From a virus: a DNA stretch of 64,000 nucleotides. This document shows, piece after piece, positions 38,972 through 61,999 of the stretch. A program made the position numbers and the translations under genes. Numbering within the stretch: position 1 is the stretch's first letter; each line of letters opens with the position of its first letter. The notes below the pieces were generated by a model that saw nothing but the letters and a program-made list of their open reading frames with translations, was not told where the DNA came from and did not search any database. Location: IMG/VR virus record IMGVR_UViG_3300022934_003307, positions 1 to 64,000 of that record. One strand, given 5' to 3'.

Positions 38972-38977
38972 TATAAT
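38949..38977 (+). promoter_or_regulatory. early promoter of dCMP hydroxymethylase, leaderless geometry
   Basis: TTTACT (38949-38954), 17 bases, TATAAT (38972-38977). The ATG at 38984 is 6 bases after the -10 box, the same spacing as at gp43, 33451 and thyX. Confidence 0.75.
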
Positions 38978-38983
38978 ATGCTT

Positions 38984-39673
38984 ATGTACAGTGTAAAAGA
39001 TATTAGAGAGTTTTTCATAGGTGAGCTAAAAGATGAAGCTTTTACCATGGATAAAACTGGTCAAAAAACAATTGAAATGATTGGTGCTTCATTTATAGCA
39101 AGTGAACCAGCTATTTTTGGTACGCCTAATCATGAATATATCGCAAAAGAACTTGCGTGGTATGAGTCACAATCAACAAACATTTATGATATTAATAAAG
39201 AGTCTGGCGCTGATGCTCCTACTGCTTGGAAATATACTGCAAATACTCACGGAGAAATCAATTCTAATTACGGAAAATTGATTTTCGATGATATATATTA
39301 TAACCAGTACGGAAACGTACTGGACGAGTTGATTAATAATCCAGATGGGCGTAGAGCTAGTATGATCTATAATCGTCCTTCTATTTGGGTTGAATATAAT
39401 GAAAACAATAAAAACGATTTTATTTGCACTAATAGTGTTACGTATTACATACGAGATAATCTTTTACATGCTGTAGTTCAAATGAGATCTAATGATGTTA
39501 TTTTTGGTTATAAAAACGATTATGCTTGGCAACGTTACGTAATGGATCGTTTAATAATGGATTATAATGGATTAAATATGTATGATAGCGGAGATAAAAT
39601 AGAGCTTGGTCACATTGTTTGGCAAGTTCAAAACTTACATGTTTATGAAAGGCATTTCCATCTTGTTAAATAA
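38984..39673 (+). CDS. 42: dCMP hydroxymethylase (thymidylate-synthase family, gp42-like)
   Basis: This 229-residue ThyA-fold enzyme has catalytic Cys 148 in 'FICTNSVTYYIRD'. The substrate loop reads 'MRSNDVIFGYKND', placing Asp 179 where thymidylate synthases have the Asn that selects dUMP. These positions equal the Cys148/Asp179 pair of T4 dCMP hydroxymethylase. It makes hydroxymethyl-dCMP for incorporation into DNA. A separate ThyX is encoded at 47851, consistent with this enzyme not serving dTMP synthesis. The ATG at 38984 is chosen from the promoter spacing; 38978 overlaps the promoter edge. Confidence 0.85.
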   Translation: MYSVKDIREFFIGELKDEAFTMDKTGQKTIEMIGASFIASEPAIFGTPNHEYIAKELAWYESQSTNIYDINKESGADAPTAWKYTANTHGEINSNYGKLIFDDIYYNQYGNVLDELINNPDGRRASMIYNRPSIWVEYNENNKNDFICTNSVTYYIRDNLLHAVVQMRSNDVIFGYKNDYAWQRYVMDRLIMDYNGLNMYDSGDKIELGHIVWQVQNLHVYERHFHLVK

Positions 39674-40100
39674 ATGGAAATATCGATATTTGGATTTAGC
39701 AGATCAAGTAGGTTCTTGGTCTAAAGATCCATCTCGTAAAATAGGAGCAATAGCAGTTGGTAAACATGGCCAAGTGTTAGCACAAGGTTATAACGGATTT
39801 CCTCGAGGTATTTCTGACATGGATGAACGTTATAATGATCGACAACTCAAATACAAATATGTAGTACATGCAGAAATGAACTGTATTTACAATGCAGCTG
39901 ATAATGGCGTATCATTAAGAGGTGCAGATTTGTACGTAACAGGTTTGCCAACCTGTTCAGATTGCGCGAAAGGAGTTATACAAGTTGGCATTAAGCGAGT
40001 CTTCATGCGAGCTGATGTTCCAGAAGCATGGATAGACTCATGGAAATTAACACAAAGTTTCTTTAATGAAGCAGGAGTCAAATATGAACTTATTGGATAA
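39645..40100 (+). CDS. cd: deoxycytidylate deaminase
   Basis: This 151-residue zinc deaminase has 'YVVHAEMNCIYNAA' (HAE motif) near residue 67 and 'GLPTCSDCAKGVI' (PCxxC-like PTCSDC) near 98. It converts dCMP to dUMP for dTTP synthesis. 'SKDPSRKIGAIAV' at the N-terminus is conserved in phage dCMP deaminases. The start lies inside the hydroxymethylase gene (ATG 39639 or 39645), and it overlaps the next small gene. Confidence 0.9.
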   Translation: MKGISILLNKWKYRYLDLADQVGSWSKDPSRKIGAIAVGKHGQVLAQGYNGFPRGISDMDERYNDRQLKYKYVVHAEMNCIYNAADNGVSLRGADLYVTGLPTCSDCAKGVIQVGIKRVFMRADVPEAWIDSWKLTQSFFNEAGVKYELIG

Positions 40101-40326
40101 AGTAAAAGCAAGTACCGAATCACCCGATGACGACAACTCATATACTCAAGAAAGATATTATGAATATATGTTAAGGCGTTATCGAGAAGAAAAAGAATCT
40201 CAAACTCCTATTAAATCTGATCTTCAACGAGAAGCTGAAATATCAGATTTAAAAGAAAGAATTAAAAAACTTGAAGTCGATATGGCTCATGTCCAATTAG
40301 AACAAAAAACAACTCTATATGGGTAA
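40084..40326 (+). CDS. small coiled-coil protein, unknown
   Basis: This 80-residue charged protein has a predicted coiled coil in residues 45-78 ('AEISDLKERIKKLEVDMAHV'). AGGAG is well placed before ATG 40084. It ends just before a strong terminator. No function is recognised. Confidence 0.65.
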   Translation: MNLLDKVKASTESPDDDNSYTQERYYEYMLRRYREEKESQTPIKSDLQREAEISDLKERIKKLEVDMAHVQLEQKTTLYG

Positions 40327-40334
40327 TTGATTAG

Positions 40335-40359
40335 GTGAGGGGAAATTTCCCCTCACTTT
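40335..40359 (+). terminator. perfect palindromic terminator
   Basis: GTGAGGGGAAA and TTTCCCCTCAC form an 11-bp perfect inverted repeat followed by TTTA. It separates the nucleotide-metabolism unit from the glucosyltransferase promoter and could act in both directions. Confidence 0.75.
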
Positions 40360-40371
40360 AAAACTTAACGG

Positions 40372-40400
40372 TGTACATTCTACTAAAAATTTGATAGAAT
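40372..40400 (+). promoter_or_regulatory. early promoter of the DNA glucosyltransferase
   Basis: TGTACA (40372-40377), 17 bases, TAGAAT (40395-40400) keep the exact spacing of the other early promoters; the -35 box has one change from TTTACA. A leader of about 20 bases with AGGA precedes the ATG. Confidence 0.75.
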
Positions 40401-40427
40401 AATAAAAATAACAGTTAGGACTATATT

Positions 40428-41705
40428 ATGAAAATTGGCGTAATTCTTGGCCGCGGTGTAGAAGGCGTTGGCCTTACTAAGAATGTAGTAGAATTTCAAA
40501 AATTATTTCCAGGCGTAGAAGTATTTGCCACAATTGATAAATTGTGGCCACGTATGAATTCTATGAATTTTAAAGTAAATTATTTTCGTGGATCTGATTG
40601 GGATACTATTAGTAAGCCTGCTAAAAAATTTCCCAATTTACTTACCTGTACTCAAGTAATTGATCGTATAAATGAATTAGATGCTTGTATTGTTTGGAGT
40701 GTACCTTCAAAATCTCATCCAGAAGATATGGTTGAAAATTTTATTAATTTACTTGATAAAATTAAAATACGTAAATCATTAGTTCAAGTTGATCATAAAA
40801 TTCATTCAATTAATCGTAATGCACGATTATCTGAAATTTGTTCTAAAATGAATGTTCTTATGTGTCATTCAATTGATAATCCATTTGGTCAATGGGTAAA
40901 GAAAAATAATATTAAAGTCCCTCTTACTAATATGGGTGTAGGATTTAATTTCAATAAAGATTATTGGAAACCAATTGAACAGCAAGATCCTCGTTATATT
41001 CGTTGGGTTGGTAGATCTGCCATGTGGAAAGGTCCAGATCTTATGATTGATTTACACAATGATTGGTTTCGTAAAAGCAATTTCATTACAGTATTAGAAG
41101 GTTTAGAAGCATCTATCCAATGGCCACTCATTGTATATAAAAATCCAAAAGAAATGTCTGATAGACGAGATGTGATTAATTATTTCAGACCTGAAAAAGG
41201 TATAGATGAAAATTCTTCTAGAGATCCACAATATGGTACTGAAAAAGAAAACTCAGGCGCTTATCTTTATACATCATATATTCATAGTGAAATGATGGAA
41301 CGTATGAGTCTTAGCGGGTTTGGTGCAGATTTGATGAACTTTAAAGAAAATGTATATGGTAATAATGTAGAATATTGTCATACTGATGCATTTGCTGCTG
41401 GTGTTATTCCATTATTCCATAAACACTTTTGTGATAATGTTATACACCGTAAACAAGGAAAACCAATTTCTGAGTGCATAAATACTGGTACGTTGGGTAT
41501 AGATAAAACTAATGCACGTGATGTATTTCAGACAATGATGAATCTTAAAAATGATAATGGACTTAGATCTGATATGCGAGAACAAATGTTTGAATTTTGG
41601 AAAGAACATTGCGATGCTGAAATAGTTTATAAAGACATTCTCGACAAAACACTTAATTTTAACGAGCTTGAAGAAGAAGCTACATTGGAGGAGTTTTTTG
41701 CATGA
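40428..41705 (+). CDS. agt: DNA alpha-glucosyltransferase-like (T4 AGT family)
   Basis: This 425-residue GT-B glycosyltransferase follows T4 alpha-glucosyltransferase closely in layout: 'GRGVEGVGLTKNVVEFQ' at residues 8-24, 'RWVGRSAMWKGPDLM' near 189, 'VLEGLEASIQ' near 223, 'SEMMERMSLSGFGADL' near 287 and 'EYCHTDAFAAGVIPLF' near 313. T4 AGT transfers glucose from UDP-glucose to 5-hydroxymethylcytosine in DNA. With the dCMP hydroxymethylase nearby this argues for glycosylated cytosines that resist restriction. The sugar actually used is unknown. Confidence 0.82.
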   Translation: MKIGVILGRGVEGVGLTKNVVEFQKLFPGVEVFATIDKLWPRMNSMNFKVNYFRGSDWDTISKPAKKFPNLLTCTQVIDRINELDACIVWSVPSKSHPEDMVENFINLLDKIKIRKSLVQVDHKIHSINRNARLSEICSKMNVLMCHSIDNPFGQWVKKNNIKVPLTNMGVGFNFNKDYWKPIEQQDPRYIRWVGRSAMWKGPDLMIDLHNDWFRKSNFITVLEGLEASIQWPLIVYKNPKEMSDRRDVINYFRPEKGIDENSSRDPQYGTEKENSGAYLYTSYIHSEMMERMSLSGFGADLMNFKENVYGNNVEYCHTDAFAAGVIPLFHKHFCDNVIHRKQGKPISECINTGTLGIDKTNARDVFQTMMNLKNDNGLRSDMREQMFEFWKEHCDAEIVYKDILDKTLNFNELEEEATLEEFFA

Positions 41706-42454
41706 AAATTGTAATTACTGGATCAAGAGGGTTTATTGGTTCCCATCTTAAAAATCATTATGAAAACAAACATCAAATTGTTGAATGGGATAGAAGTATT
41801 AAAAAAAACATTGAAGATTTTTCTTTGTCATCTGGTGTTGGTGCAGTAGTTCATTTAGCTGCACTTGCTGATGTAAGAAGAAGTATTGCTGAACCCGATT
41901 TATATTGGCAAAATAATGTAATAAATACTAAAAGAATACAGGATATGTGTGCAATGCATAACGTAAAGTTATTATATGCATCTTCATCATGTATTCACAA
42001 TTGGAGTTTATCACCGTATGGAACCTCAAAGAAAGTCAACGAAGCAACAGCTCATCCAGGCCAAGTTGGTCTCCGCTTTACCACTGTTTATGGCGATGGT
42101 GCTCGGGATACTATGTTTATGGGCCGGCTTCTTTCCGGTGATCTTCAGTATAGTACTAACCATATTCGTGATTTTATTCATGTTAGTGATGTTGTCTCAG
42201 CGATTGATTCAATTATTTTTTCTGAGCATGAACCCAAACATGGCGCTTATGATATTGGGACTGGAAATGGTAATCCTGTATCAGCTCTTGCTAAATTGGC
42301 TGGATATGATATTCCCGTAAAAGATGGGGATCCATGCGAAGCACAGGATAATACTGCAGATATTACACCAATGCAAGAAGAGTTTGGTTGGGAACCAAAG
42401 GTTGATGTAAAAAAATATATTATTAATCATCAATATGAAGGAACTCCTGTTTAA
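41702..42454 (+). CDS. NAD-dependent sugar epimerase/dehydratase-like
   Basis: This 250-residue extended SDR has 'MKIVITGSRGFIGSHL' (GxxGxxG) at the N-terminus, 'HLAALADVRRS' near 51, 'YASSSCIHNW' near 93 and the catalytic 'YGTSK' near 106. It resembles GalE/WcaG enzymes that epimerise or dehydrate NDP-sugars. It overlaps the glucosyltransferase by 4 bases and abuts the C5-methyltransferase, so it may tailor the donor sugar for the modification. It is shorter than typical GalE (about 330 residues). Confidence 0.85.
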   Translation: MKIVITGSRGFIGSHLKNHYENKHQIVEWDRSIKKNIEDFSLSSGVGAVVHLAALADVRRSIAEPDLYWQNNVINTKRIQDMCAMHNVKLLYASSSCIHNWSLSPYGTSKKVNEATAHPGQVGLRFTTVYGDGARDTMFMGRLLSGDLQYSTNHIRDFIHVSDVVSAIDSIIFSEHEPKHGAYDIGTGNGNPVSALAKLAGYDIPVKDGDPCEAQDNTADITPMQEEFGWEPKVDVKKYIINHQYEGTPV

Positions 42455-43644
42455 TGAATTATGCAAGTATAGTCCCGCTCATTGGTGGTGAGACTATCGC
42501 CATGGAGCGGGTCTTTAATAAAAAACCGGAGTATATTTTAAGTTATGAACCGTTTCAATCTAATGACGACCATTTGGTCAAATATTACAAATCAGTTCCC
42601 TACCATCTTATCGATGATGGTAGGGAACCTGTGTTTTCTAATGTCGATGTTATTAATACCGTATGTCCTTGTGCTGGTCTTAGCAGTTTATCTACTACAG
42701 CTAATTCTGATTCTGCTGCTAACGATTGGATGCGCACCACAGCTACTTATGTATTGGGTACACTCAAACCTAAAGTATTCTGGGGCGAAAACGCGCCAAG
42801 ACTTGCTTCTAAAATGGGACAACCGATTGTCGAAGATCTCAGACAAATTGGGAGAGATAACGGATACACTTTCTCAATATATAAGACGAAGTCTATCCTT
42901 CATGGATTAAGTCAAACTCGTGATAGAACTTTTTATTTTTTCTGGAAAGGTGAAAAAGTACCAAAATTCGAATATATAAAAAGGAAGCACGAGAAAATTG
43001 AGGATACGATACGTTCCGTGAAACGAGATCAAGCTGATCCAATGAACATCCTAACTAATGATCGTGTTCCAACTGAGAATGCTTATTATAAGTATATCCT
43101 TCAAGAAATTGAAGGTGGTATGGATCATGCTACATTTTCTTCTAAAATAGAAAAATCTACAAACGTATTAGATCATATTGAAAAACATACAACTTATGAC
43201 AAAGTAGCTAAATGGATGGCTAAAAATGGCTATCATAAAGAAGCTGATCGTTGTAATAAAATGTATGATAAATTAAAAGCCGGTTTTAATATTATGAGAA
43301 AAAATGTAGAAATTCCAAAAGATTATATTGGAGCATTTGTAGGACATTATCCAACACAACTTACTCATCCAGATGAAGATCGTTTTCTTACAATTCGTGA
43401 ATGTATGTCTATTATGAAATTACCTAATGACATGATATTACAAGGCGGTAAAAAAAATATAAATCATATTTGTCAAAACGTGCCCGTAACTACTGCTATG
43501 GATATGGCAGAGCATGTATTAAAATTTATTGATGGTAGATTATCAAATCAAATGATTGATACTGATTATGTAGTTCAATGTAATAAATCTCAAAAAATTC
43601 AATATCAGCAAAATAGTTTACAACTCGATGAATTTATGGTATAA
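42454..43644 (+). CDS. DNA (cytosine-5) methyltransferase-like
   Basis: This 396-residue protein carries C5-methylase motifs in order: a motif I region 'VPLIGGETIAMERVF' (7-21), a motif IV variant 'TVCPCAGLSSLS' (catalytic Cys 73; Ala replaces the usual Gln after Cys), motif VI 'WGENAPR' (120), motif VIII 'QTRDR' near 154, motif IX 'TIRECMSIMKLPNDM' near 310 and motif X 'NVPVTTAMDMAEH' near 340. It starts at the TAATG junction with the epimerase gene. The PCA variant and the predicted hydroxymethylcytosine content raise the question of its real substrate. Confidence 0.85.
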   Translation: MNYASIVPLIGGETIAMERVFNKKPEYILSYEPFQSNDDHLVKYYKSVPYHLIDDGREPVFSNVDVINTVCPCAGLSSLSTTANSDSAANDWMRTTATYVLGTLKPKVFWGENAPRLASKMGQPIVEDLRQIGRDNGYTFSIYKTKSILHGLSQTRDRTFYFFWKGEKVPKFEYIKRKHEKIEDTIRSVKRDQADPMNILTNDRVPTENAYYKYILQEIEGGMDHATFSSKIEKSTNVLDHIEKHTTYDKVAKWMAKNGYHKEADRCNKMYDKLKAGFNIMRKNVEIPKDYIGAFVGHYPTQLTHPDEDRFLTIRECMSIMKLPNDMILQGGKKNINHICQNVPVTTAMDMAEHVLKFIDGRLSNQMIDTDYVVQCNKSQKIQYQQNSLQLDEFMV

Positions 43645-43645
43645 T
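43617..43645 (+). promoter_or_regulatory. early promoter of uvsX inside the methyltransferase 3' end
   Basis: TTTACA (43617-43622), 17 bases, ATGG then TATAAT (43640-43645). It overlaps the stop region of the methyltransferase gene, and the leader carries AAAGGAG before the uvsX ATG. Confidence 0.82.
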
Positions 43646-43667
43646 AATAAAGTTAAAGGAGCAATAT

Positions 43668-44708
43668 ATGTCAATAATGGATAAATTGAAAAAGAATAGT
43701 AAAGTAGAATATACTAATGTTCTTGCAGATAGTAAATTTTTTACTGAAAAAGATATGGTACCAACAGATGTGCCAATGATTAATGTTGCATTATCGGGTT
43801 CAGTTGATGGCGGTGTTGCACCAGGTCTTACTGTATTAGCTGGTCCATCAAAACATTTTAAAACTTCATTTGGTCTTATTATGGCCTCAGCATATTTGAA
43901 AAAATATCCTGAAGCTGTATTATTATTTTATGATTCTGAATTTGGTTCACCACAATCATACTTTCAACAATACGATATTGATACAACTCGTGTTCTTCAT
44001 ACACCAATTACAAATGTAGAAGAACTTAAATTTGATGTTATATCACAACTTGAAGGTTTGGATAGAGAAGATAAAGTTATCATAATGATTGATTCAGTTG
44101 GTAACTTAGCATCGAAAAAAGAATTAGAAGATGCTATCAATGAAAAATCTGTAGCAGATATGTCAAGAGCAAAAGCTCTTAAAGGCTTATTTAGAATGGT
44201 AACACCATATTTAAATATGAAAGATATTCCTTTACTTGCTGTAAATCATACTTATATGGAAATTGGTTTATTTCCAAAAGCAGTGGTGTCTGGTGGAACG
44301 GGTATATACTATAGTGCGGATAATATTTGGATTCTTGGTAGACAACAAGATAAAAAAGGTACAGAAATTCAAGGTTACCATTTTGTAATTAATGTTGAGA
44401 AAAGTAGATATGTTAAAGAAAAGTCTAAGATTCCTATTACTGTTTCCTGGGACGGTGGTGTTCGCAATTACAGCGGCCTTCTTGATGTGGCTCTCGCTGG
44501 TGGCTACGTTACTAAACCTTCCAACGGCTGGTACGCTGAAGTTAATCAGGAAACTGGTGAAATTGGCTCAAAGGTTAGGTATGATCAAACTTTAGAGGAA
44601 GCCTTTTGGATACCAATTTTTGAAGACACAGATTTTAAAGAATTTTTGAAAAAGCAATATGCTATTGGTTATAAAGCAGAAGTGGAGCTAGATTTTGAAA
44701 CAGAATGA
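43668..44708 (+). CDS. uvsX: RecA-like recombinase UvsX
   Basis: This 346-residue RecA-fold protein has Walker A 'AGPSKHFKTSFG' near residue 58 (UvsX-type), Walker B 'IIMIDSVGNL' near 139 and an L2-like 'GGTGIYYSAD' near 207. It pairs ssDNA with homologous duplex in recombination-dependent replication, loaded by UvsY. The 3' end overlaps the next gene by 14 bases. Confidence 0.95.
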   Translation: MSIMDKLKKNSKVEYTNVLADSKFFTEKDMVPTDVPMINVALSGSVDGGVAPGLTVLAGPSKHFKTSFGLIMASAYLKKYPEAVLLFYDSEFGSPQSYFQQYDIDTTRVLHTPITNVEELKFDVISQLEGLDREDKVIIMIDSVGNLASKKELEDAINEKSVADMSRAKALKGLFRMVTPYLNMKDIPLLAVNHTYMEIGLFPKAVVSGGTGIYYSADNIWILGRQQDKKGTEIQGYHFVINVEKSRYVKEKSKIPITVSWDGGVRNYSGLLDVALAGGYVTKPSNGWYAEVNQETGEIGSKVRYDQTLEEAFWIPIFEDTDFKEFLKKQYAIGYKAEVELDFETE

Positions 44709-51318: not shown

Positions 51319-51359
51319 AACAGTGACACTTTTGTTTATATTAAATAAAAAATAAAGTG

Positions 51360-51388
51360 TTTACATTTCTTAAAAGTTTTGATATAAT
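51360..51388 (+). promoter_or_regulatory. early/sigma70-type promoter of the tmRNA locus
   Basis: TTTACA (51360-51365), 17 bases, TATAAT (51383-51388). The predicted start near 51395 coincides with the first base-paired segment of the acceptor RNA, which supports both calls. Confidence 0.82.
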
Positions 51389-51394
51389 ATATAG

Positions 51395-51451
51395 TATGGT
51401 AGATGTTAGAGGACAGACAGGACTCGGGGGCGGTACCCGACGCCTCCACCA
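51395..51451 (+). ncRNA. ssrA: two-piece permuted tmRNA, acceptor RNA piece
   Basis: This segment ends in CGCCTCC-A-CCA (51441-51451), an acceptor strand with encoded CCA. It pairs over 7 bp with GGGGGCG at 51712-51718 (one G-U). A T-arm-like hairpin TCGGG-(GGCGGTA)-CCCGA occupies 51424-51440, although the 7-base loop lacks the usual TTCRA bases. Upstream, CAGAC (51414-51418) pairs with GTTTG (51736-51740), and GTAGAT (51399-51404) pairs with GTCTAC (51742-51747), giving the tmRNA P2 helix. GGAC between P2 and the T stem also matches tmRNA. The order acceptor piece first, coding piece second, is the permuted arrangement of alphaproteobacteria. Confidence 0.88.
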
Positions 51452-51471
51452 TAAATACACTAGGAGTGATT

Positions 51472-51699
51472 ATGCCCGATGATGAAAACAAAAAAATTGT
51501 AGAAGTAAAAAACGAACCAAACTCATTTGAGTTAATGTTAAGAGTTTTAGGAAATGAGTTTATTGGAATTAGATTAGCATCAACAAATGCTAGTGGTAAA
51601 ATGATTTTATGGGCTATATTACTATTATTCTTTACTTTCATGATTATGGAAGTCTTTGGATTCAATCAGTATTTTACTGGAATTGATTATTACGAGTAG
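51472..51699 (+). CDS. membrane protein encoded inside the tmRNA intervening segment
   Basis: This 75-residue protein starts at ATG 51472 with TAGGAG six to ten bases upstream. The first 45 residues are charged ('MPDDENKKIVEVKNEPNSFE'). A single membrane span follows ('MILWAILLLFFTFMIMEVFG', about 46-65), with a short tail ending DYYE. It lies entirely between the acceptor RNA (ending 51451) and the coding RNA (starting 51712), so it is transcribed from the tmRNA promoter and would be released when the precursor is processed. No homologous family is recognised. Confidence 0.75.
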   Translation: MPDDENKKIVEVKNEPNSFELMLRVLGNEFIGIRLASTNASGKMILWAILLLFFTFMIMEVFGFNQYFTGIDYYE

Positions 51700-51711
51700 T
51701 GTATTTATGAT

Positions 51712-51845
51712 GGGGGCGAACTAGGATCGACTGATGTTTGAGTCTACGAAAAATAACTGCAAACGATAACTTTGCACCTTCAGATTACGCTTTAGCGGCA
51801 TAATGCTGACGGGTTGGGCACTTACCTTGGAACAGAAAAGTGTCA
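51712..51845 (+). ncRNA. ssrA: two-piece permuted tmRNA, coding RNA piece
   Basis: It begins GGGGGCGAACTAGGATCGAC, the typical tmRNA 5' acceptor strand and D-like region. The tag frame runs GCA (51759) to TAA (51801-51803) and encodes ANDNFAPSDYALAA, with the ANDNF start of alphaproteobacterial tags and the common ALAA degron end. ATAACT directly precedes the resume codon. After the tag, GGGT (51811-51814) with ACCT (51824-51827) and GGCACTT (51817-51823) with AAGTGTC (51838-51844) form an H-type pseudoknot, as expected at the 3' end of a coding RNA. Only 18 bases lie between P2 and the resume codon, so no PK1 pseudoknot is present. The exact 3' end is uncertain by several bases. Confidence 0.9.
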
Positions 51846-51874
51846 CCATTAATTTAAATCAAAGGAAGAAAAAT

Positions 51875-52258
51875 ATGAAAAATATTCTTGTAGCAGCTGC
51901 CCTTGTTGCAGTAAGCTCACTAGCCGCTAATGCAAATGAGCTAGGCGGTGGATTCAGTTGGAATTTAGAAACAACAGCTGAACATAACGTAGATACCGAA
52001 GTAAGTACATGGACAATCACGCCAGAATTAAATTATGACATGATGGGTTTGCTTAATTTAGAAGTATCTTCAAAACTTAATTTGTACGATGGTACAGATT
52101 GGGCATGGGATGAAACTACTCATCTTACAGAACCAACAATTAATTTTGAAGCTTCAAAAGAAGTTGTAGCAAATGCAGAAATTTATGCTAAAACTGGCTA
52201 TGACTTCAAAACAGATGATATGACAGATGTCACTGTTGGAGTTACTTGGAGCTGGTAA
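51875..52258 (+). CDS. outer-membrane beta-barrel-like protein
   Basis: This 127-residue protein has a Sec signal peptide ('MKNILVAAALVAVSSLAANA', cleavage near residue 20). The mature part has alternating polar and hydrophobic strands ('STWTITPELNYDM', 'LLNLEVSSKLNLYD', 'NAEIYAKTGYDFK') and ends in aromatic 'VTVGVTWSW', the C-terminal signature recognised by the Bam complex. It is small (about six to eight strands). It follows the tmRNA with AAAGGAAG before its ATG and no promoter of its own that I can see. It may alter the host surface, for example as superinfection exclusion; this is inference. Confidence 0.7.
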   Translation: MKNILVAAALVAVSSLAANANELGGGFSWNLETTAEHNVDTEVSTWTITPELNYDMMGLLNLEVSSKLNLYDGTDWAWDETTHLTEPTINFEASKEVVANAEIYAKTGYDFKTDDMTDVTVGVTWSW

Positions 52259-52335: not shown

Positions 52336-53268
52336 ATGAATTATTTTGAATTAAAACCTGAAGAAAACACATTTTCAAATATTGTAATAGATCTTACTCA
52401 TAGATGTAATATGGAGTGCGCTAATTGTTATATCCCAAATAGAGATATTCCAGATCTAAATAAAAATAAACTATATGAGTTTTTATCTAAACTTCCTCAT
52501 AGAACATATATAAGATTAATTGGTGCTGAACCAACAATGCGTGATGATTTGCCGGAAATTATATCTACGGTTAAAAAGCTTGGTCATCGCCCAAGTGTAA
52601 CTACTAATGGATTAAAACTAGCTAGAAGAGAATATGTAAAACAACTAAAAAATGCTGGTCTTAGATTATTACTTCATAGTATGAATGGTGCCGATGATGA
52701 TATGGCATATAAAGAATTGGATAATGGTAATTGGGCTACAGTTAAAGTAAGAGCATTAGATAATATATTTGCTGAAAGACTACCAATTAATACTGGTACT
52801 ATTATCGCTCGTGGTGTAAATGAATACATAATGAATAGACAAGTAGAAGTGTTTGCTGAAAGAGCAATAAAGTCTGGAATCAATTTTAATACTACTGCTC
52901 CATATAATAGAATTACACCAGTTTTAAGAATGAAATCTGTAGGTGCAATCGGTAGATATATGGAAGGAGTGTCTTATACAATTGATGAATTAATTGAAAT
53001 GGCAAGTTATAGATTAGGCGTAAATAAATCAGATATGATTCAAACATCTGCGGGTGTTGTTAAAGCTGGTCCATCAATGGAGGCTTTAACATCTTGGATG
53101 TTTCCATATGAAACAGAAGCTGGTAAAATATTAATTAGACTTATAGATTGGCAAACTGATGATGATGGTGTTATCGATCATGATAATCCAAATAGAGGTA
53201 GACTTACCGAAAATTTTACAGTAGCACCTTTCTTTGAACATGTTAAAGTAAATGAGAACAATTACTAA
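52336..53268 (+). CDS. radical SAM enzyme
   Basis: This 310-residue radical SAM protein has the cluster motif CNMECANC (Cys 24, 28, 31), a 'GAEPTMRDDL' loop near 65 (the GGEP SAM-binding motif with Ala for the second Gly), 'SVTTNGL' near 91 and 'LLLHSMNGADDD' near 115. The C-terminal third lacks an obvious Cys-rich SPASM domain. It heads the oxygenase cluster and overlaps the next gene by 17 bases, so it may act in the same modification pathway. The substrate is unknown. Confidence 0.85.
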   Translation: MNYFELKPEENTFSNIVIDLTHRCNMECANCYIPNRDIPDLNKNKLYEFLSKLPHRTYIRLIGAEPTMRDDLPEIISTVKKLGHRPSVTTNGLKLARREYVKQLKNAGLRLLLHSMNGADDDMAYKELDNGNWATVKVRALDNIFAERLPINTGTIIARGVNEYIMNRQVEVFAERAIKSGINFNTTAPYNRITPVLRMKSVGAIGRYMEGVSYTIDELIEMASYRLGVNKSDMIQTSAGVVKAGPSMEALTSWMFPYETEAGKILIRLIDWQTDDDGVIDHDNPNRGRLTENFTVAPFFEHVKVNENNY

Positions 53269-53758
53269 ATACGATAAACTTTGGTTTTATGCTTTAGATC
53301 AAATATTTGAAATGATTGAAAGAATACCAGATAACGATTATCTTAAAGAAAATTATTCTATAGATAATCTGCAATCTCATACATGGGAAGCAGTATCATA
53401 CGATAAAAATCAATTTTCTTCTATACTCCATAGAGATTTATGGGGTAACAATTGTAGAATTTTAAATAGATTCTATAAAACTCCAGAATCTAGATTCGAA
53501 AATTCAAAAGGGAAAATGTCTCAAGCTACTTTAGAAATGATTGATCAGCAATTAAAAGTTGCACATAAATTAGGATTTGATTGTGCATTTATGAGCAGAG
53601 AAAAAAATCATCAAGCATTTAGACACTATGTTAAACATTTACCACAAGATTGGTATATAGAAAATTCACCTTATCAAATGACAGAAACAAGTTGGCAACA
53701 TTTAATGTGGACACCAATAAATAGTAACATATTAATAATGGAGAATCAAAATGGTTAA
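53252..53758 (+). CDS. conserved protein in oxygenase cluster, unknown fold
   Basis: This 168-residue protein has 'CRILNRFYKTPESRFE' near 68, 'AHKLGFDCAFMSREKNHQAF' near 104 and 'HYVKHLPQDWYIENSPYQM' near 125. The spacing faintly recalls phage proteins with acetyltransferase-like folds, but I see no clear acyl-CoA motif. It is coupled to the radical SAM gene upstream and overlaps the first TauD-like gene by 8 bases. Confidence 0.65.
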   Translation: MRTITKYDKLWFYALDQIFEMIERIPDNDYLKENYSIDNLQSHTWEAVSYDKNQFSSILHRDLWGNNCRILNRFYKTPESRFENSKGKMSQATLEMIDQQLKVAHKLGFDCAFMSREKNHQAFRHYVKHLPQDWYIENSPYQMTETSWQHLMWTPINSNILIMENQNG

Positions 53759-54566
53759 AGTGATAGAAAATATTAATTATTCTATTGATGGCCCAAAAGT
53801 GGTAGAATATCTTGGCGATCATCGCACTGTAATTATTAAAAATAAACAACCAGTAGAACCTGAAACTCTTATAAGTTTTTATAAAACACTTGGTAATGTT
53901 ATTCAACAAAATGACAAAGTTACAGGAACTATTGCGACAGGTGAATTGGTTAAAGTTAGGCAAAACGGTTTATTTGCTGGTAAAGAAGATGGCGAATTAG
54001 AATGGCATTCAGCTGGAATGAATAGAACTGGTCATGATGATATCGTAGCAATGTATATGCATCAACCCGCTGAGAGTGGAGGTGATACTTATTTTACTGA
54101 TCATCAAACTGCTTGGAACGATCTTGATGAAGAAACAAAAAATATATGTCGCAGCGTAAAATCAAAAACAGTTACATATACATCTAAAATGAAATTAGAA
54201 AAAATGCACTATAAAAATGTATTTAGTGATGAACAAACTATGATGGAATTTAGAGATATAGATGGAAAAACTAGTTTTGAAAAACAAACACCTCGTAAAG
54301 ATTTAGTTACAAAACATCCTATTAATAATAAAGAAGGATTATATTATCCATGGAGTGTTATTAGAGGTTTTACTGGTTTAGATCGTGATCAACAACATTC
54401 TTTATATTATAAATTAAAAAGCCATACATTAAAATCAAAGTATGTTTATACGCATAAATGGGATAAATATGATATTGTTTTAAGCGACCAACATCATAGC
54501 TTACATAAACGTGATGCATATACCGGTGATCGTGAATTATGGAGGGCTGGAATATGCTTGAAATAG
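53751..54566 (+). CDS. TauD-like 2-oxoglutarate/Fe enzyme with HxA (halogenase-type) triad
   Basis: This 271-residue protein aligns over its length with TauD/TfdA: 'LEWHSAGMNR' (H86-S87-A88) sits where TauD has WHTD, followed by 'SGGDTYFTDHQTAW' as TauD 'TGGDTLWTS'. The distal His 252 lies in 'HHSLHKRDAY' and the 2-oxoglutarate Arg 265 in 'RELWRAGI'. The metal-binding Asp of HxD is Ala, the replacement known from SyrB2-type non-haem iron halogenases where chloride fills the site. It could be a halogenase, an enzyme with altered chemistry, or an inactive partner of the adjacent HxD paralogue. Confidence 0.8.
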   Translation: MVKVIENINYSIDGPKVVEYLGDHRTVIIKNKQPVEPETLISFYKTLGNVIQQNDKVTGTIATGELVKVRQNGLFAGKEDGELEWHSAGMNRTGHDDIVAMYMHQPAESGGDTYFTDHQTAWNDLDEETKNICRSVKSKTVTYTSKMKLEKMHYKNVFSDEQTMMEFRDIDGKTSFEKQTPRKDLVTKHPINNKEGLYYPWSVIRGFTGLDRDQQHSLYYKLKSHTLKSKYVYTHKWDKYDIVLSDQHHSLHKRDAYTGDRELWRAGICLK

Positions 54567-55282
54567 AATATAAAGATTATCATAAATTTAATCTTAAAGA
54601 AGAAGTATTATCTAATGGAATAGTTTGTATTAGAAATGCTGAGTTAACTATGCCTGAATTTGAAAAAATTGCTGAATCATTGGGTAAATTACTTAAAACA
54701 AATAAGCATGCTATAAATGAAAAAAGAAATATTCAAGAATTAAGTAATAATGAATTATTAAGAGATGGAGATGTTGATTGGCATAATGATTGGTCATATG
54801 GTAGAGGAAACTATTTTGGAACAATGCTGTATAATGTTAAGAATGCACACTTAAGTCCAACTTGGTTTGTTGATACTAGTAAAGTTCCATATTGGTTAAA
54901 GCTGCATTACATCGATTGTACAGGATATTATTGGTTGCCTCAGAAAAATAATGAAGTATATGCGTTTGGTACTGATTCTGAAATTAATAAATGCTTTACA
55001 GATAAACAATTAAAAATTTTAGAAAAGTATGTACAGAAAAGATCATTTGTAATGGATCATTTTAAAACAAATGAAGAACTTTTATATTGTAGTCTTGGCA
55101 CAATTCAAAAAATGGATAATGAAAAAGAATTAGATACATTTAGAGATTATTGTGAAAATAATAATTATAAACATGAATGGCAAGAAGGTGATATATTATT
55201 ATGGGATAATTTAAAAATGATTCATAAAAGAGTAGCTTTCGAAGGAGACCGTATTTTATGGAGGACTCAATTTTCAATATAG
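54554..55282 (+). CDS. TauD-like 2-oxoglutarate/Fe(II) dioxygenase
   Basis: This 242-residue protein has the complete triad: 'VDWHNDWSYG' (H77, D79), H224 in 'LKMIHKRVAF' and Arg 237 in 'RILWRTQF'. It is a divergent paralogue of the preceding gene, with the same C-terminal pattern (HKR ... DR..WR). It probably hydroxylates or desaturates a small molecule, peptide or nucleotide. ATG 54554 with GGAG nine bases before is used. It overlaps both neighbours. Confidence 0.82.
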   Translation: MLEIEYKDYHKFNLKEEVLSNGIVCIRNAELTMPEFEKIAESLGKLLKTNKHAINEKRNIQELSNNELLRDGDVDWHNDWSYGRGNYFGTMLYNVKNAHLSPTWFVDTSKVPYWLKLHYIDCTGYYWLPQKNNEVYAFGTDSEINKCFTDKQLKILEKYVQKRSFVMDHFKTNEELLYCSLGTIQKMDNEKELDTFRDYCENNNYKHEWQEGDILLWDNLKMIHKRVAFEGDRILWRTQFSI

Positions 55283-55701
55283 CTGTTATTAGTTTTCCAA
55301 GAACTGCTAGTAAATCATTAGCAGAATGGTATGGTAGAAAATATAATAAATCAGTTGCTCTTGGATCTTTACATACACCAGAATATCTAGGTGAAAATTT
55401 ATATGACACTAAAAAAATAGTGAAAGATAAAACAGACATATTGCATGGCCATTGGCATTCTCTTCATAAATTAGATACGGAAACTTTAGGTGATTTATTT
55501 CTTAATTATAAAATTGTAACATGTTATAGAAAAGAAGAATTAGTAAGAGCATCTATATTGAGAGTTACAGGAAAAGATTTATTTGATAAAACAATGCACC
55601 AAACATTGAGAGAAAAAGGTCGATGGAAAATATGGAAAGAACATATAGTTAACGGAGATCAAGTTGAAACTGTTAAAGGAATACCACACGGCTATTGCTA
55701 G
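55258..55701 (+). CDS. sulfotransferase-like P-loop protein, short
   Basis: This 147-residue protein has 'VISFPRTASKSLAEWY' at residues 10-25, matching the 5'-phosphosulfate loop of sulfotransferases, and 'VTCYRKEELVRASILR' near 87, like the 3'-phosphate-binding Arg/Ser segment. Only the first half of a normal sulfotransferase (about 250 residues) is present. The last 38 bases overlap the next gene in another frame. It could be a minimal or degenerate PAPS-dependent enzyme. Confidence 0.6.
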   Translation: MEDSIFNIAVISFPRTASKSLAEWYGRKYNKSVALGSLHTPEYLGENLYDTKKIVKDKTDILHGHWHSLHKLDTETLGDLFLNYKIVTCYRKEELVRASILRVTGKDLFDKTMHQTLREKGRWKIWKEHIVNGDQVETVKGIPHGYC

Positions 55702-56302
55702 TGATTATGTTCTTCAATTAAATTATGAAGAATATAATTTAAAGAAATTAGAACAATGTTTTTGGAATAAGTATTCTTATAAAGATCCTACGCCAAAAGG
55801 TTGGCATAGTCTTCGTGAATTTGATGATATAATTCTTAATTGCTTACCTAAAAAATTAATTCCTTATTTAGTTACTAAAGATTTATTTGTATTATATTTT
55901 CATAATAAAAGACCTCCACGTCAACTATCAGATGGATTAGAACGAACAGTTATTCATCGTGACGGTGGAGACGTTATGAAATGGTATGCTCAAATTAATT
56001 TACCAGTTTATAATTGTAATGAAAATAGTAAGACTATATTCTGGGACACAGTTGGAGAATATAAAGATTTACCAGGTTTTAAATCTACTATGCTTAAAGA
56101 AGGAAATTTAAAGAAATCAATAGAGTTTGCTATGACTGATAAACCAGTATTATTTAATAGTCGTAAATATCATTCAGTTGATTTACCTGATTTAAAGGTT
56201 GAAAGAGCATCTTTCACTATTAGATTTAAAGAAGAATATAGTTGGGAAGATGCTAAAAAATTATGTGGAGAATACATTGAAGATACTACATCAGCACCCT
56301 AA
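55664..56302 (+). CDS. phage 2OG-Fe(II) oxygenase family member A
   Basis: This is a 212-residue protein from a TTG start with GGAG and a six-base spacer. The double-stranded beta-helix motif is 'VIHRDGG' (H98, D100), 'QINLPVYNC' near 110, distal 'NSRKYHSV' (H170) and 'ERASFTIRF' with the 2OG-type Arg near 181-187. It shares 'DYV..LN' at the N-terminus and 'SWEDAKKLC' at the C-terminus with paralogues at 56277 and 56809, which supports the TTG start and shows it is not a continuation of the sulfotransferase. The substrate is unknown. Confidence 0.78.
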   Translation: MKLLKEYHTAIASDYVLQLNYEEYNLKKLEQCFWNKYSYKDPTPKGWHSLREFDDIILNCLPKKLIPYLVTKDLFVLYFHNKRPPRQLSDGLERTVIHRDGGDVMKWYAQINLPVYNCNENSKTIFWDTVGEYKDLPGFKSTMLKEGNLKKSIEFAMTDKPVLFNSRKYHSVDLPDLKVERASFTIRFKEEYSWEDAKKLCGEYIEDTTSAP

Positions 56303-56873
56303 TCATAAATCGCATGATTATGTTGTACCTTTAAATATTAATATATCAAAAGCAAAAGATGTTTTTTTCAAATATTATAATGAAAAGAAAAAAACATTTT
56401 TAAATAGTTTTCCTATGAATGAAGAAGCTTTATCTATTTTGCCTGAAGAACTTCATCCATGGATAGAATTAAATCAAATATGGATAGGATATTTTCATAG
56501 CAAAAGAAAAACTGGTGCATATATTCCAATTCATGTAGATAATCATAGATCAAATGTTAAATATCCATGCAGTATTAATATACCTTTAATTGGATGTTCA
56601 GAAAATATTACTACAAGTTTTTGGGAACCAGTTGGAGAAGTAAGAGGATTAGAAAAACCTAAAGCTGAATGGTATGATTATGGACAATTAAATCATGCAT
56701 TTGAATTTGCTCTAACAGATACTGCAGTACTATATAATAATCAAAAATGGCATAGTGTTTTTAATCCAATGCCTCAAGATCATGAAAGAGCAATTATGAT
56801 TTTTAAATTTAGTAATGAAGTTCCTCAATGGGAGGACTGTCGTCAATTAACCCATGCTCTTCACAAAGTTTAA
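56277..56873 (+). CDS. phage 2OG-Fe(II) oxygenase family member B
   Basis: This 198-residue protein starts at TTG 56277 with GGAG upstream, MKILHQHPNHKSHDYVVPLN aligning with member A. The triad is 'PIHVDNH' (H86, D88) and H159 in 'NNQKWHSV', with 'ERAIMIFKF' near the end. 'SINIPLIGCSEN' near 99 is the family's central strand. The 3' end overlaps the convergent member C by 65 bases. An ATG at 56250 is possible but lacks support. Confidence 0.78.
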   Translation: MKILHQHPNHKSHDYVVPLNINISKAKDVFFKYYNEKKKTFLNSFPMNEEALSILPEELHPWIELNQIWIGYFHSKRKTGAYIPIHVDNHRSNVKYPCSINIPLIGCSENITTSFWEPVGEVRGLEKPKAEWYDYGQLNHAFEFALTDTAVLYNNQKWHSVFNPMPQDHERAIMIFKFSNEVPQWEDCRQLTHALHKV

Positions 56874-57426
56874 TTGCATCTTCCCAACTAATTCCTGGTT
56901 TAAATCTCCAGCTTAATCCAATTCTTAAATCATCACTATTATTGTCTACGCTATGTGGCCATTCAGTTCGAAACAAAACTGCATGATCTTTCATTACAAA
57001 GCTTTCTTTAATTACTAAATCAGATTTATTTACTATATCTCTTGCTGGTATATTTAAATAGATATATTCTAAATCTCTATTATCTTCAAAATCCCAAAAA
57101 TGTGTAACTACTCGTTCATCACAATTTTTAACGGGTATATTAATTGAAACAGTATATGTATTTTCTGGTGTATTAGCCTGCCCATCAGCATGAATTGGTA
57201 TATTATATTTTGGAAATACATTTAACACGAGAACCACATCTCTTAAATATTCACTAATTGGACCAATTGTAGATATTAATTTTTTAGAAACTGGAATATG
57301 GTTATTCCATTTTTTCATTCGTTTTAGTAAATCTAAATCAGCATTTTTTAAAAAATTTTCATTAATATATTCATAATAAAAATCTTTAGGAATATGAAAT
57401 CCCTTGAGAGGAACTATATATTTCAT
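56809..57426 (-). CDS. phage 2OG-Fe(II) oxygenase family member C
   Basis: This 205-residue minus-strand protein has 'PIHADGQA' (H79, D81), 'VSINIPVKNC' near 93, H158 in 'TEWPHSVDN', Arg 168 and a C-terminal 'GISWEDAIKLCEEHG'. It is the same family as A and B on the other strand, arranged tail to tail with B. The coding ends overlap, so the WED motif region of B and the tail of C are read from complementary strands. It starts inside member D's 3' end. Confidence 0.78.
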   Translation of the reverse strand: MKYIVPLKGFHIPKDFYYEYINENFLKNADLDLLKRMKKWNNHIPVSKKLISTIGPISEYLRDVVLVLNVFPKYNIPIHADGQANTPENTYTVSINIPVKNCDERVVTHFWDFEDNRDLEYIYLNIPARDIVNKSDLVIKESFVMKDHAVLFRTEWPHSVDNNSDDLRIGLSWRFKPGISWEDAIKLCEEHGLIDDSPPIEELHY

Positions 57427-57877
57427 TTAATTCTCCAACCGTTTGAGTATAACTCAAACTCAATACAACTCTATTAAATGGACTGAGACTATTATCAACT
57501 CGATGAGGTATATCAACTCTCCAACATTTCGCAGTTTTTAAATCTATTGATTCAATCACTTCATCATTTTTCATATATTGAAACATACTAGTATGATGAA
57601 CTTTAATTGGTATGTTGATTGCAGTAATTCTTTGTTTTAATCCAGCTTCTGCAGCTTTATTATCAATATGTGTTTTACACACTGTTTTTGCTGGAACCAT
57701 AATGATAGATGCATATTCTGGTTTTGGTACATTTAAATATGATATTTTGTTTAAGTACTCTTCATTTAATCTAAATGGTCTTATAGACCAGTTTGGCTCT
57801 GTAATAACATCGCCGATTTTTAAAATCCATTGTTTATCATTGGGTTTTAAATTCGTTTTCACTTCAAACCATTTCAT
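57386..57877 (-). CDS. phage 2OG-Fe(II) oxygenase family member D, short
   Basis: This 163-residue minus-strand protein has 'CKTHIDNKA' (H70, D72), 'ITAINIPIKV' near 84, H125 in 'VDIPHRVDN' and Arg 136 in 'FNRVVLSLSY'. The core is intact, but the N-terminal lead and WEDA tail of A-C are missing or changed. It overlaps C by 41 bases and E by 14. Confidence 0.72.
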   Translation of the reverse strand: MKWFEVKTNLKPNDKQWILKIGDVITEPNWSIRPFRLNEEYLNKISYLNVPKPEYASIIMVPAKTVCKTHIDNKAAEAGLKQRITAINIPIKVHHTSMFQYMKNDEVIESIDLKTAKCWRVDIPHRVDNSLSPFNRVVLSLSYTQTVGELNEIYSSSQGISYS

Positions 57878-58328
57878 TAACTAATCCTACAATATGATAT
57901 CTTAATAATTCTTTTTCTCCATTTAAAGCTGTATGTGTTTTAGTTGTATCAACACAATAAGCTCTACCAGCATTTAATCTATAAACTTCATCATTTACTA
58001 CAAATAAACATTTATCACTTGTAATTAAAGGGAAATGAATTCTAGGGCTTACATCAGTATGAATAGTATAACATGTTTGAGGATGTAAACACATTAGTCG
58101 AGAAGTCGACATATTAAATTTAGCAAAAAGATAATTTAAATTTGGTAAATCGAAAGTAGGATCTTTCCCCTTTTGTAAAAAAACATTATTGCTTTTATCA
58201 AGGGGCCAATCTTCTTCTATTTTTTTATAACTGTTAGAAATTTCTGGCGTTAATAAAAATTTTACTTCATTTAAAATTTCATTTAAATTTATTTCACCTA
58301 AATCATTCACTATATTCTGTAAAGTCAT
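57864..58328 (-). CDS. aspartyl/asparaginyl beta-hydroxylase-like oxygenase (member E)
   Basis: This 154-residue minus-strand protein resembles the AspH domain: 'YTIHTDVSPRIHFPLIT' (H90, D92, R96), 'NAGRAYCVDTTKTHTALN' (H132, N136) and 'ELLRYHIVGLV' (Arg 143). AspH-type enzymes hydroxylate Asp, Asn or, in relatives, other residues of proteins and peptides. It differs from A-D and adds a third oxygenase type to the cluster. Confidence 0.78.
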   Translation of the reverse strand: MTLQNIVNDLGEINLNEILNEVKFLLTPEISNSYKKIEEDWPLDKSNNVFLQKGKDPTFDLPNLNYLFAKFNMSTSRLMCLHPQTCYTIHTDVSPRIHFPLITSDKCLFVVNDEVYRLNAGRAYCVDTTKTHTALNGEKELLRYHIVGLVNEMV

Positions 58329-58623
58329 ATTCTATCACTTCATCAACATGAGGTAAAGCTGTTAGTGTTGTTCGAATATCAGTTAAACTCATAATGTTTA
58401 AAAACTCATCAGCTTTAGTATCTGTCCATACTCTTTCAACTGTAAGAGTAAGGTTATCTTCTGATAAACTTGGTGGAATATTATCAACAATATGTCCAGT
58501 CATCATACCTTCAGCAACGTATTGTCTTAGAGCTAAATTAATATTAGTTCCGATTGACGCCATTGCAGCTTCAGCATCAGTTTGTGGATTAGTAAATCTA
58601 ACTACGTATCGCTGTTGTTTCAT
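58303..58623 (-). CDS. small acidic protein in minus-strand oxygenase operon
   Basis: This 106-residue protein has 'YVVRFTNPQTDAEAAMASIG' at the N-terminus and 'LTLTVERVWTDTKADEFLNI' near 58. Its alternating strands and helices could be a ferredoxin-like alpha/beta fold. No catalytic motif is seen. It overlaps member E by 26 bases, so it might be a partner or regulator of the enzymes. Confidence 0.65.
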   Translation of the reverse strand: MKQQRYVVRFTNPQTDAEAAMASIGTNINLALRQYVAEGMMTGHIVDNIPPSLSEDNLTLTVERVWTDTKADEFLNIMSLTDIRTTLTALPHVDEVIEYDFTEYSE

Positions 58624-58637
58624 TCTTTTTCTCCATT

Positions 58638-59402
58638 TTATTCTGCAAATTCTAACTGTGTCATTTCAATATGTAAAATATTTTGTTGACCTTTATATTC
58701 TTCCCATTCAAATTTACAAGGGTTAATCTTAAAATCTTCTATGCCATCTATAAGAGTTGATATAATCTCTTTCTTATTATATATGGTAACAAATTCTTCT
58801 ACATTATCCCAATACGTATTTCCTTCTTTATTTAATTTTTCATAAAATTGCGTAGACTGTACAATTTGATTATTAACCAAATACATTGCCATTGGATCTC
58901 CAAAAGATTCTTTTATAAGACTATCGCATTTTCCATATTTTTGTAATCTTTTATGTTGAAAATATTGTAACATGGGAATATTATCAAAAGTAACAAATGA
59001 TAATAATAATTCAATTTTTTCATAGCTTTTTTTATAACCAATTAATGAATTAATAATATCCATCATATTTTCTAAAGTAGTATGTGAAAATACACTATAA
59101 GCAACTATTCCTTTAATGAAGTATTTCTTTGGTAATACTGGTGGAAGATCAGCGCCATTTTTATTATATACGGGATTGTACATATTGAACCATGTAAACT
59201 CATAATCTGGAAAATTTTCTCTAGCTTTGTGAATATTATTAATATCTACATCAATTCCCAAGTAATTACTTGGATCTATTTTAAAGCTCCTAAGTAAATT
59301 ACCAGTACCACAGCCATAGTCTATGATTTTTTCTTCAGGTTTACAAGAAGAAATCATTTTCTTTAAGGCATTACTTTTGATTTTGTACTTTTCTGTATGC
59401 AT
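58638..59402 (-). CDS. class I SAM-dependent methyltransferase
   Basis: This 254-residue protein has motif I 'IIDYGCGTGNLLRSF' at residues 26-40, the acidic loop 'YLGIDVDINNIHKA' near 48, and 'GIVAYSVFSHTTLENMMDII' near 98 (motif IV/post-motif region). It is the first gene of the minus-strand oxygenase operon. A TATAAATA late box ends 5 bases before its ATG, implying a leaderless mRNA. The substrate is unknown; its context suggests it modifies the same target as the oxygenases. Confidence 0.82.
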   Translation of the reverse strand: MHTEKYKIKSNALKKMISSCKPEEKIIDYGCGTGNLLRSFKIDPSNYLGIDVDINNIHKARENFPDYEFTWFNMYNPVYNKNGADLPPVLPKKYFIKGIVAYSVFSHTTLENMMDIINSLIGYKKSYEKIELLLSFVTFDNIPMLQYFQHKRLQKYGKCDSLIKESFGDPMAMYLVNNQIVQSTQFYEKLNKEGNTYWDNVEEFVTIYNKKEIISTLIDGIEDFKINPCKFEWEEYKGQQNILHIEMTQLEFAE

Positions 59403-61525: not shown

Positions 61526-61999
61526 ATGTCGTCAACTAAACTCTGGAAAAAGGTAAAAACTATGGATCTAGGAAATCCCGTAATCACCGCTCTCGTTGGA
61601 CTGGTGATTTTTTACATTGGCCTCAAAACATTCTCAGGTGGAATGAAGTCAATGGGAAATATGGACCATCTACAATTTTTTTTAGGTAGTCCAATATACA
61701 TGTTCATTGGAGGAATCGTTATGACTCTCCTTTGGCAATCATCATCGTTATCAACAACAGCAATTATTGCTTTAGTTGCATCTGGAGCTTTACCACTTCC
61801 AGCAGCGGTTGCAGCAGTATTAGGCGCTAACATTGGTACGACAGGTACGATATGGTTAGCTGGCTTTTTCGTCTCAGATGGATGGCCGAAAGGTGATACT
61901 CTTCGAATAGCCATGGCCCATACGGGCATGAACTTATTGATGGCTCTATCGCTATTACCATTTGTAGGATATATAGCTAAATTCCTTGGTAGATTTTAA
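61526..61999 (+). CDS. half-size Na/phosphate cotransporter-like membrane protein
   Basis: This 157-residue protein has four hydrophobic segments. The motif 'WQSSSLSTTAIIALVASGAL' near residue 70, followed by 'VLGANIGTTGTIW' near 101, is the QSSS repeat signature of the Na/Pi cotransporter II (NptA) family. Normal members have two such repeats in about 300-550 residues; only one is present here, so the protein may dimerise. Uptake of phosphate during infection would support DNA synthesis, but transport is not proven. AAGGA precedes ATG 61526, and the gene is flanked by two terminators. Confidence 0.8.
   Translation: MSSTKLWKKVKTMDLGNPVITALVGLVIFYIGLKTFSGGMKSMGNMDHLQFFLGSPIYMFIGGIVMTLLWQSSSLSTTAIIALVASGALPLPAAVAAVLGANIGTTGTIWLAGFFVSDGWPKGDTLRIAMAHTGMNLLMALSLLPFVGYIAKFLGRF

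Follow-up and report, generated by a model that had tools for sequence, protein, structure and literature searches.

A candidate mobile tailoring cassette of a marine T4-like phage with a TauD-type protein that has alanine in place of the iron-binding carboxylate

In 64,000 nucleotides of viral DNA (positions 1 to 64,000 of the IMG/VR virus record IMGVR_UViG_3300022934_003307, hereafter the window), seven genes for proteins resembling Fe(II)/2-oxoglutarate (2OG) oxygenases lie at 53751-58328. We read this locus, with a probability of roughly 0.55, as one mobile biosynthetic (tailoring) cassette rather than as seven unrelated genes; a single pathway is suggested because the genes are inherited together, have overlapping frames and are mobile. 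The new point, and on sequence the most informative feature, is that the first of two TauD-type proteins (TauD1) carries His-x-Ala (HxA) at the first iron motif, where His-x-Asp (HxD) is expected, while its other iron and 2OG residues are kept.

The original prediction had placed seven oxygenase-like open reading frames (ORFs) here on both strands, and ORF calling confirmed all of them. They form two convergent operons, four oxygenases on the plus strand and three on the minus strand, with a tail-to-tail overlap of 65 bp; the co-orientation claimed for the array thus holds within each operon but not overall. On the plus strand the four oxygenases follow a radical SAM (rSAM) gene and a GNAT-like gene, and on the minus strand a methyltransferase-like gene and a small ORF precede the other three. 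The predicted rSAM and methyltransferase flanks and the sulfotransferase-like gene within the array, so labelled by motif only, were all found, and most adjoining frames overlap, mostly by 8-104 bp. A search with the cassette family profiles detected no further oxygenase of these families elsewhere in the record. The genes are as follows.

rSAM, 52336..53268, plus strand: radical SAM protein with CNMECANC and GAEPT motifs (Pfam Radical_SAM 1.4e-14); constant core gene.
ORF2, 53252..53758, plus strand: GNAT-like acyltransferase, a weak assignment; constant core gene.
TauD1, 53751..54566, plus strand: Fe/2OG enzyme of predicted TauD/TfdA fold with HxA (H86, A88); T113, H252 and R265 kept.
TauD2, 54539..55282, plus strand: TauD-like oxygenase with the canonical HxD; likely start 54554, which has a better Shine-Dalgarno sequence than the start at 54539.
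Sulf, 55258..55701, plus strand: short sulfotransferase-like protein with an SFPRTASK loop, assigned by motif only.
OxA, 55664..56302, plus strand: 2OG-oxygenase-fold protein; H98, D100, H170, R181.
OxB, 56199..56873, plus strand: OxA paralogue; likely start 56277 from start context.
OxC, 56809..57426, minus strand: paralogue of OxA and OxB, in the convergent operon.
OxD, 57386..57877, minus strand: related short oxygenase; HxD/H/R invariant.
AspH-like, 57864..58328, minus strand: Asp_Arg_Hydrox oxygenase, HTD...H...R (Pfam PF05118, 1.4e-9).
ORF11, 58303..58623, minus strand: small protein that adjoins AspH in several relatives.
Methyltransferase-like, 58638..59402, minus strand: SAM-dependent; present in one relative only.

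A search with TauD1 retrieved 12 viral contigs and a TauD1 profile added one more. In 12 marine viral contigs the order is rSAM, GNAT-like gene, TauD1 and TauD2, mostly followed by Sulf, OxABC, OxD and AspH, and because order and motifs are kept in these other contigs we do not regard the array as a product of chance. The co-occurrence proposed as a check was borne out: the block rSAM-ORF2-TauD1-TauD2 is present in 12/12 dereplicated loci, three or so of which have one gene between the TauDs, and the ORF2 family likewise occurs in 12/12. The outer genes (OxABC, AspH, extra TauDs and fam14, a further HxD...H...R family present in several cassettes) vary among loci. A search with the rSAM alone, which did not select for neighbours, returned 125 viral relatives; the 80 retained from these gave 55 non-redundant rSAM genes. 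With neighbour family profiles seeded from the window cassette, at least one oxygenase of these families was found within 6 kb of the rSAM in 45/55 cases, at least two in 30/55 and at least five in 9/55; AspH-like genes were near 39 of the 55, GNAT-like genes near 29 and TauD genes near 23.

Judged by the genomes in which it occurs, the cassette moves between phage lineages as a unit, because it is present in a T4-like relative of 146 kb (polymerase 54% and capsid 74% identical), in a phage record of 376 kb and in one of 155 kb that matches neither the T4-like polymerase nor the T4-like capsid. The cassettes of other relatives include methyl-, carbamoyl- or glycosyltransferase-like proteins, and aminotransferases, at some loci. 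A version with rSAM, an HxD TauD and an HlyC-type acyltransferase lies on a contig of chromosomal appearance from a Geminicoccaceae metagenome-assembled genome (L017 7929-10112), with an ABC exporter and a C39-type peptidase encoded nearby; this is a possible cellular source of the cassette. Among isolated phages, searches gave no match to rSAM, OxA or fam14, and only distant hits to TauD1 and AspH, in the pelagiphage Mosig.

Both TauD-like genes and the AspH-like gene of the original prediction gave Pfam matches above the gathering score. TauD1 matched TauD (PF02668) at 3.3e-29 (103 bits) and TauD2 at 6.7e-22 (79 bits; cut-off 27), and the AspH-like protein, in which the metal triad is kept, matched Asp_Arg_Hydrox with 38.4 bits against a gathering score of 22.6. 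The first iron motif of TauD1 is His-Ser/Cys-Ala, the Ala falling on the Asp ligand in an alignment of the TfdA family (WHSD/WHSA). TauD1 therefore departs from the 2-His-1-carboxylate triad, with HxA in the window and in all clade relatives; the window and 17 further loci (two near-duplicates) have this Ala. At every HxA locus TauD1 is followed by an HxD TauD2, whose triad is complete (WHND/WHHD ... H ... R). The HxD and HxA sites named together in the original prediction are thus not interchangeable: HxA is real, but it is confined to TauD1 and invariant in its clade. H86, T113, H252 and R265 of TauD1, which we take from established TauD structures to be the iron and 2OG positions, are invariant in the relatives. 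TauD1 is under strong purifying selection (ratio of nonsynonymous to synonymous substitution rates, dN/dS, 0.04-0.06 in close pairs), and its conservation is generally above that of TauD2. Its identity to solved TauD/TfdA members is 11-19%. The structure check that had been suggested gave a TauD-like fold for TauD1, but the model is only fair (predicted local distance difference test score, pLDDT, 65) and is poor around the active site, with pLDDT below 50 at residues 53-95.

A search with the TauD of Mosig found 42 loci, and the TauDs aligned from these carry HxN. In a 64-row tree, which came with a long-branch warning (L049 and others), HxD sequences occupy one side (100/99) and HxN and HxA sequences the other; HxA forms one group (99/98), and HxN is not resolved as a single group. 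Since HxA and HxN TauDs share one side of the tree, the carboxylate was probably lost once, which would give the carboxylate-free TauD clade (support 100/99) a single origin. The tree also includes a lone, very divergent HxN TauD of 370 aa (L049 14232-15344) that groups weakly with the HxA clade (90/66) and, used as a query, retrieved only itself. TauD1 peptide patterns found no relative in cellular genome contigs, and a search of 289 genomes from a single bacterial class at E 1e-25, run without a positive control, gave no match to TauD1.

The remaining oxygenases look conventional. OxA, OxB and OxC are clear paralogues (BLAST, OxA-OxB 4e-28 and OxA-OxC 3e-13), but OxD is a more distant relative, so that the four members of one phage family originally proposed are better described as '3 + 1'. 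OxC orthologues also lie on the minus strand in four relatives (L004, L005, L009 and L012). OxA-D gave no meaningful Pfam match and no TET/JBP hit in Pfam at E 1, although they may still be distantly related to those DNA oxygenases, and the OxABC and fam14 profiles gave zero sequence matches in the PDB. The AF2 model of OxA is a confident double-stranded beta-helix (pLDDT 86; predicted TM score, pTM, 0.87) that matches 2OG hydroxylases (VIA Z 11.1 against 7v4m and 10.9 against PHD2). Among 22 OxABC sequences His/Asp/His is invariant and Arg is 95% conserved; both the fold and the metal triad anticipated for OxA were thus found. For OxD and the AspH-like family, checked on triads alone, conservation is also high, with His/Asp/His/Arg invariant in 12 OxD sequences and His 99%, Asp 97% and His 97% in 67 AspH-like sequences. 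From these motifs we would expect ordinary 2-His-1-carboxylate hydroxylases in TauD2, OxA-D and the AspH-like protein. The nearest solved relative of the AspH-like family profile is the caprazamycin hydroxylase Cpz10 (7v4f, 2e-19).

Assignments of the partner proteins differ in strength. The rSAM scores 55 bits in Pfam against a cut-off of 29.5, and in a 12-row alignment, where mean identity is 81%, its CxxxCxxC motif is invariant as CNMECANC. No SPASM domain was found in it, and its nearest solved relatives are the tetraether synthase Tes (3e-15) and MoaA (1e-10). Identification as a prokaryotic viperin (pVip) was rejected (NCBIfam 38.6 against 180 bits; the PADLOC pVip match spans residues 18-107 only), and because PADLOC gave only this partial match and weak mad2 matches, the cassette is not classed as a defence system. 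In the ORF2 family 2/18 members match Acetyltransf_1 (best 2.7e-5), the window member being without a Pfam hit; among PDB sequences the GNAT-like profile picked up nothing but unrelated proteins, designed or helical, and these were set aside. The window Sulf protein has no Pfam or NCBIfam hit, and its PRT.S motif is invariant in 12 relatives. The methyltransferase-like protein scores 28.8 bits (2e-6) with Methyltransf_12 (cut-off 30) and 27.2 bits with Methyltransf_23 (cut-off 27). Just upstream of the rSAM, a small secreted protein, possibly a beta-barrel, is encoded at 51803-52258 (plus strand) and has relatives in five other cassette loci. A second, very weak rSAM-like ORF without a Pfam hit is present at 27884-28513 (plus strand; E 3e-4 with the cassette-derived rSAM profile).

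Several known systems resemble TauD1 or the cassette in part. With the TauD/TfdA dioxygenases (AAD-2, 5bke; TauD, 3pvj) the window TauDs share the fold, the distal His and the Thr and Arg that bind 2OG, but TauD1 has HxA, and the pelagiphages HxN, where HxD is expected and TauD2 retains the full triad. With the Fe(II)/2OG halogenases (SyrB2, WelO5, BesD, AdaV) TauD1 shares HxA/G with both iron His and the 2OG-binding residues kept; it differs in that none of these is among its listed PDB matches and that its sister clade is HxN. Human AspH, like TauD1, has no carboxylate ligand, but it belongs to a different family, and the AspH-like protein of the window keeps HxD. Caprazamycin is a nucleoside antibiotic whose pathway contains a second 2OG enzyme, Cpz15 (PMC9814697), besides the Cpz10 matched by the phage AspH family profile; the likeness to such clusters is in enzyme kinds only, no gene-cluster homology being shown. 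Mosig (EXVC030M; MT647606) has homologous rSAM, TauD, OxABC-like, GNAT-like and two AspH-like genes in one region, at 55-69 kb, but its TauD is HxN, its rSAM is distant (8e-36), the cluster adjoins tail fibres and there are extra aminotransferases, a carbamoyltransferase and methyltransferases. The rSAM cassettes of pelagimyophages (PMC7029224) likewise come and go in marine T4-like phages; the text of that paper does not use the word oxygenase and gives no function for them. Halogenase chemistry has been described in a marine virus (Gkotsi 2019, as cited in PMC10452541), there with a flavin enzyme of unrelated fold.

We propose that a constant core of rSAM, GNAT-like acyltransferase and one or two TauD-type enzymes would build or modify one molecule, which the varying small oxygenases (OxA-D, AspH-like, fam14) and the sulfotransferase-like protein would decorate, with methyl-, carbamoyl- or glycosyltransferase-like proteins sometimes adding to the decoration. 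By analogy, the enzyme kinds (rSAM, acyltransferase, sulfotransferase-like protein and hydroxylases, with carbamoyltransferase, aminotransferases and methyltransferases in relatives) resemble those of natural-product tailoring. The iron of TauD1 would be held by two His only, and the Ala at the carboxylate position would let water or a halide bind; TauD1 may therefore chlorinate or brominate the shared intermediate or perform an AspH-like, carboxylate-free oxidation. We infer a single shared substrate, the order of the steps and the binding of halide; as to what is modified, we would guess at a small molecule resembling a nucleoside, an amino acid or a sugar, and not at DNA. The original prediction of a multi-step pathway with one common substrate gains support, by inference, from the 12/12 core synteny and the recurrence in unrelated phage backbones, whereas the diversifying set of hydroxylases against host targets, offered beside it, fits the variable outer genes only and not the conserved core.

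HxA/G in place of HxD/E is an accepted signature of Fe/2OG halogenases (PMC11186838, PMC12871659), and in TauD1 a motif of this type is accompanied by both conserved His and by the 2OG Arg. One of these papers warns of false positives (PMC12871659), and human AspH hydroxylates with its iron on two His and an HxG motif (PMC10947486); because such hydroxylases also lack the carboxylate, halogenation is a possibility. TauD1 is quite likely to be catalytically active as a carboxylate-free Fe/2OG enzyme, a halogenase included. We suggest only tentatively, and consider rather doubtful, that it founds a TauD-type Fe(II)/2OG halogenase clade, so far found in phages only, that would chlorinate or brominate an intermediate of the mobile pathway. 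Several points tell against the proposal. The poorly modelled residues of TauD1 include H86 and A88; its listed PDB profile and fold matches are all of TauD/TfdA type, none a known halogenase, though it may still be related to one; and HxN in the sister clade would leave no obvious room for a halide, so that loss of the carboxylate need not mean halogenation. The co-occurrence counts for rSAM and oxygenases stand without a background rate for unrelated phage genes, and many contigs are fragments, which makes absences weak.

TauD1 might instead be a pseudoenzyme that catalyses nothing itself and serves TauD2 as a partner or regulator; this would replace one part of the proposed mechanism. The constant succession of HxA TauD1 and HxD TauD2 would suit such a role, as would the loss of activity in FIH when Asp is changed to Ala (PMC10947486), but both iron His and the Thr and Arg of the 2OG site are invariant, and TauD1 is generally the better conserved of the pair. 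Around the HxN TauD of Mosig, moreover, the 24.6 kb examined contain no TauD of the HxD kind, which argues that carboxylate-free TauDs need no HxD partner. We regard this alternative as unlikely, though of real weight.

The main rival to a small-molecule pathway, to which we give about a one-in-four standing, is that the cassette modifies a protein or peptide (a tail fibre, another virion or host protein, or a precursor like those of ribosomally synthesized and post-translationally modified peptides, RiPPs) through post-translational rSAM chemistry, AspH/PHD-like hydroxylation, acylation, sulfation and methylation. The PHD2-like fold of OxA, the AspH-like proteins, the HlyC-type protein acyltransferase of the bacterial version, the tail-fibre genes adjoining the cassettes of Mosig and L016 and the placement of pelagimyophage rSAM cassettes in a variable host-recognition region (PMC7029224) all accord with it. 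In the window, however, no tail-fibre gene was recognised beside the cassette, and a RiPP-type precursor inside it was considered and dropped because the overlapping genes leave no room for an ORF of precursor size; among solved structures, the closest relative of the AspH family has a small-molecule substrate. That the region is hypervariable and gathers unrelated auxiliary oxygenase genes without a shared pathway is a good deal less probable: marine phages often carry 2OG oxygenases (PMC11561400) and the outer genes differ among loci, but the core order is fixed across distinct phages, frames overlap and the genes recur around the same rSAM family. Hypermodification of DNA bases, linked to the phage alpha-glucosyltransferase and thymidylate-synthase-family gene, seems the least probable of these readings. 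The window does encode both of these and a cytosine-C5 methylase, and DNA-acting 2OG enzymes exist (TET/JBP), but Pfam gave no TET/JBP hit. Glucosylation of DNA is disfavoured because a search of 13 further records that bear the cassette, among them the T4-like relative of 146 kb, did not turn up the alpha-glucosyltransferase, although these records offered no positive control.

The record itself, a fragment of a virus genome 68.4 kb long, encodes T4-like versions of the portal, capsid, sheath, DNA polymerase and helicase. A permuted transfer-messenger RNA (tmRNA) of alphaproteobacterial type at 51356-51847 (plus strand), with the tag-like sequence ANDNFAPSDYALAA, was missed by ARAGORN; its type hints at an alphaproteobacterial host. 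A block of sugar- and DNA-modification genes at 38066-44708 encodes UDP-glucose dehydrogenase, a thymidylate-synthase-family protein (possibly a deoxycytidylate hydroxymethylase), alpha-glucosyltransferase, a nucleotide-sugar epimerase and cytosine-C5 methylase. A 1090-residue multidomain protein at 878-4150 (plus strand) has glycosyltransferase-like regions and a methyltransferase-like region, and a short membrane protein at 61526-61999 (plus strand), with QSSS and GANIGTTGT motifs, resembles half of a Na/phosphate symporter, a reading of its sequence alone.

Phage 2OG oxygenases are well known, and in marine phages they are auxiliary genes that occur often and lack an explanation (PMC11561400); among the open-access papers searched, none dealing with this cassette or with an Fe/2OG halogenase from a virus came to light. 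The cassette provides these oxygenases with defined partners (rSAM and acyltransferase), with a core that is conserved and, in the Pelagibacter HTCC1062 phage Mosig, with a distant counterpart in culture, and their function can thereby be tested. As a natural experiment in the chemistry of iron sites, the carboxylate-free TauD clade would yield a novel halogenase scaffold or else a further case of oxidation without a carboxylate ligand.

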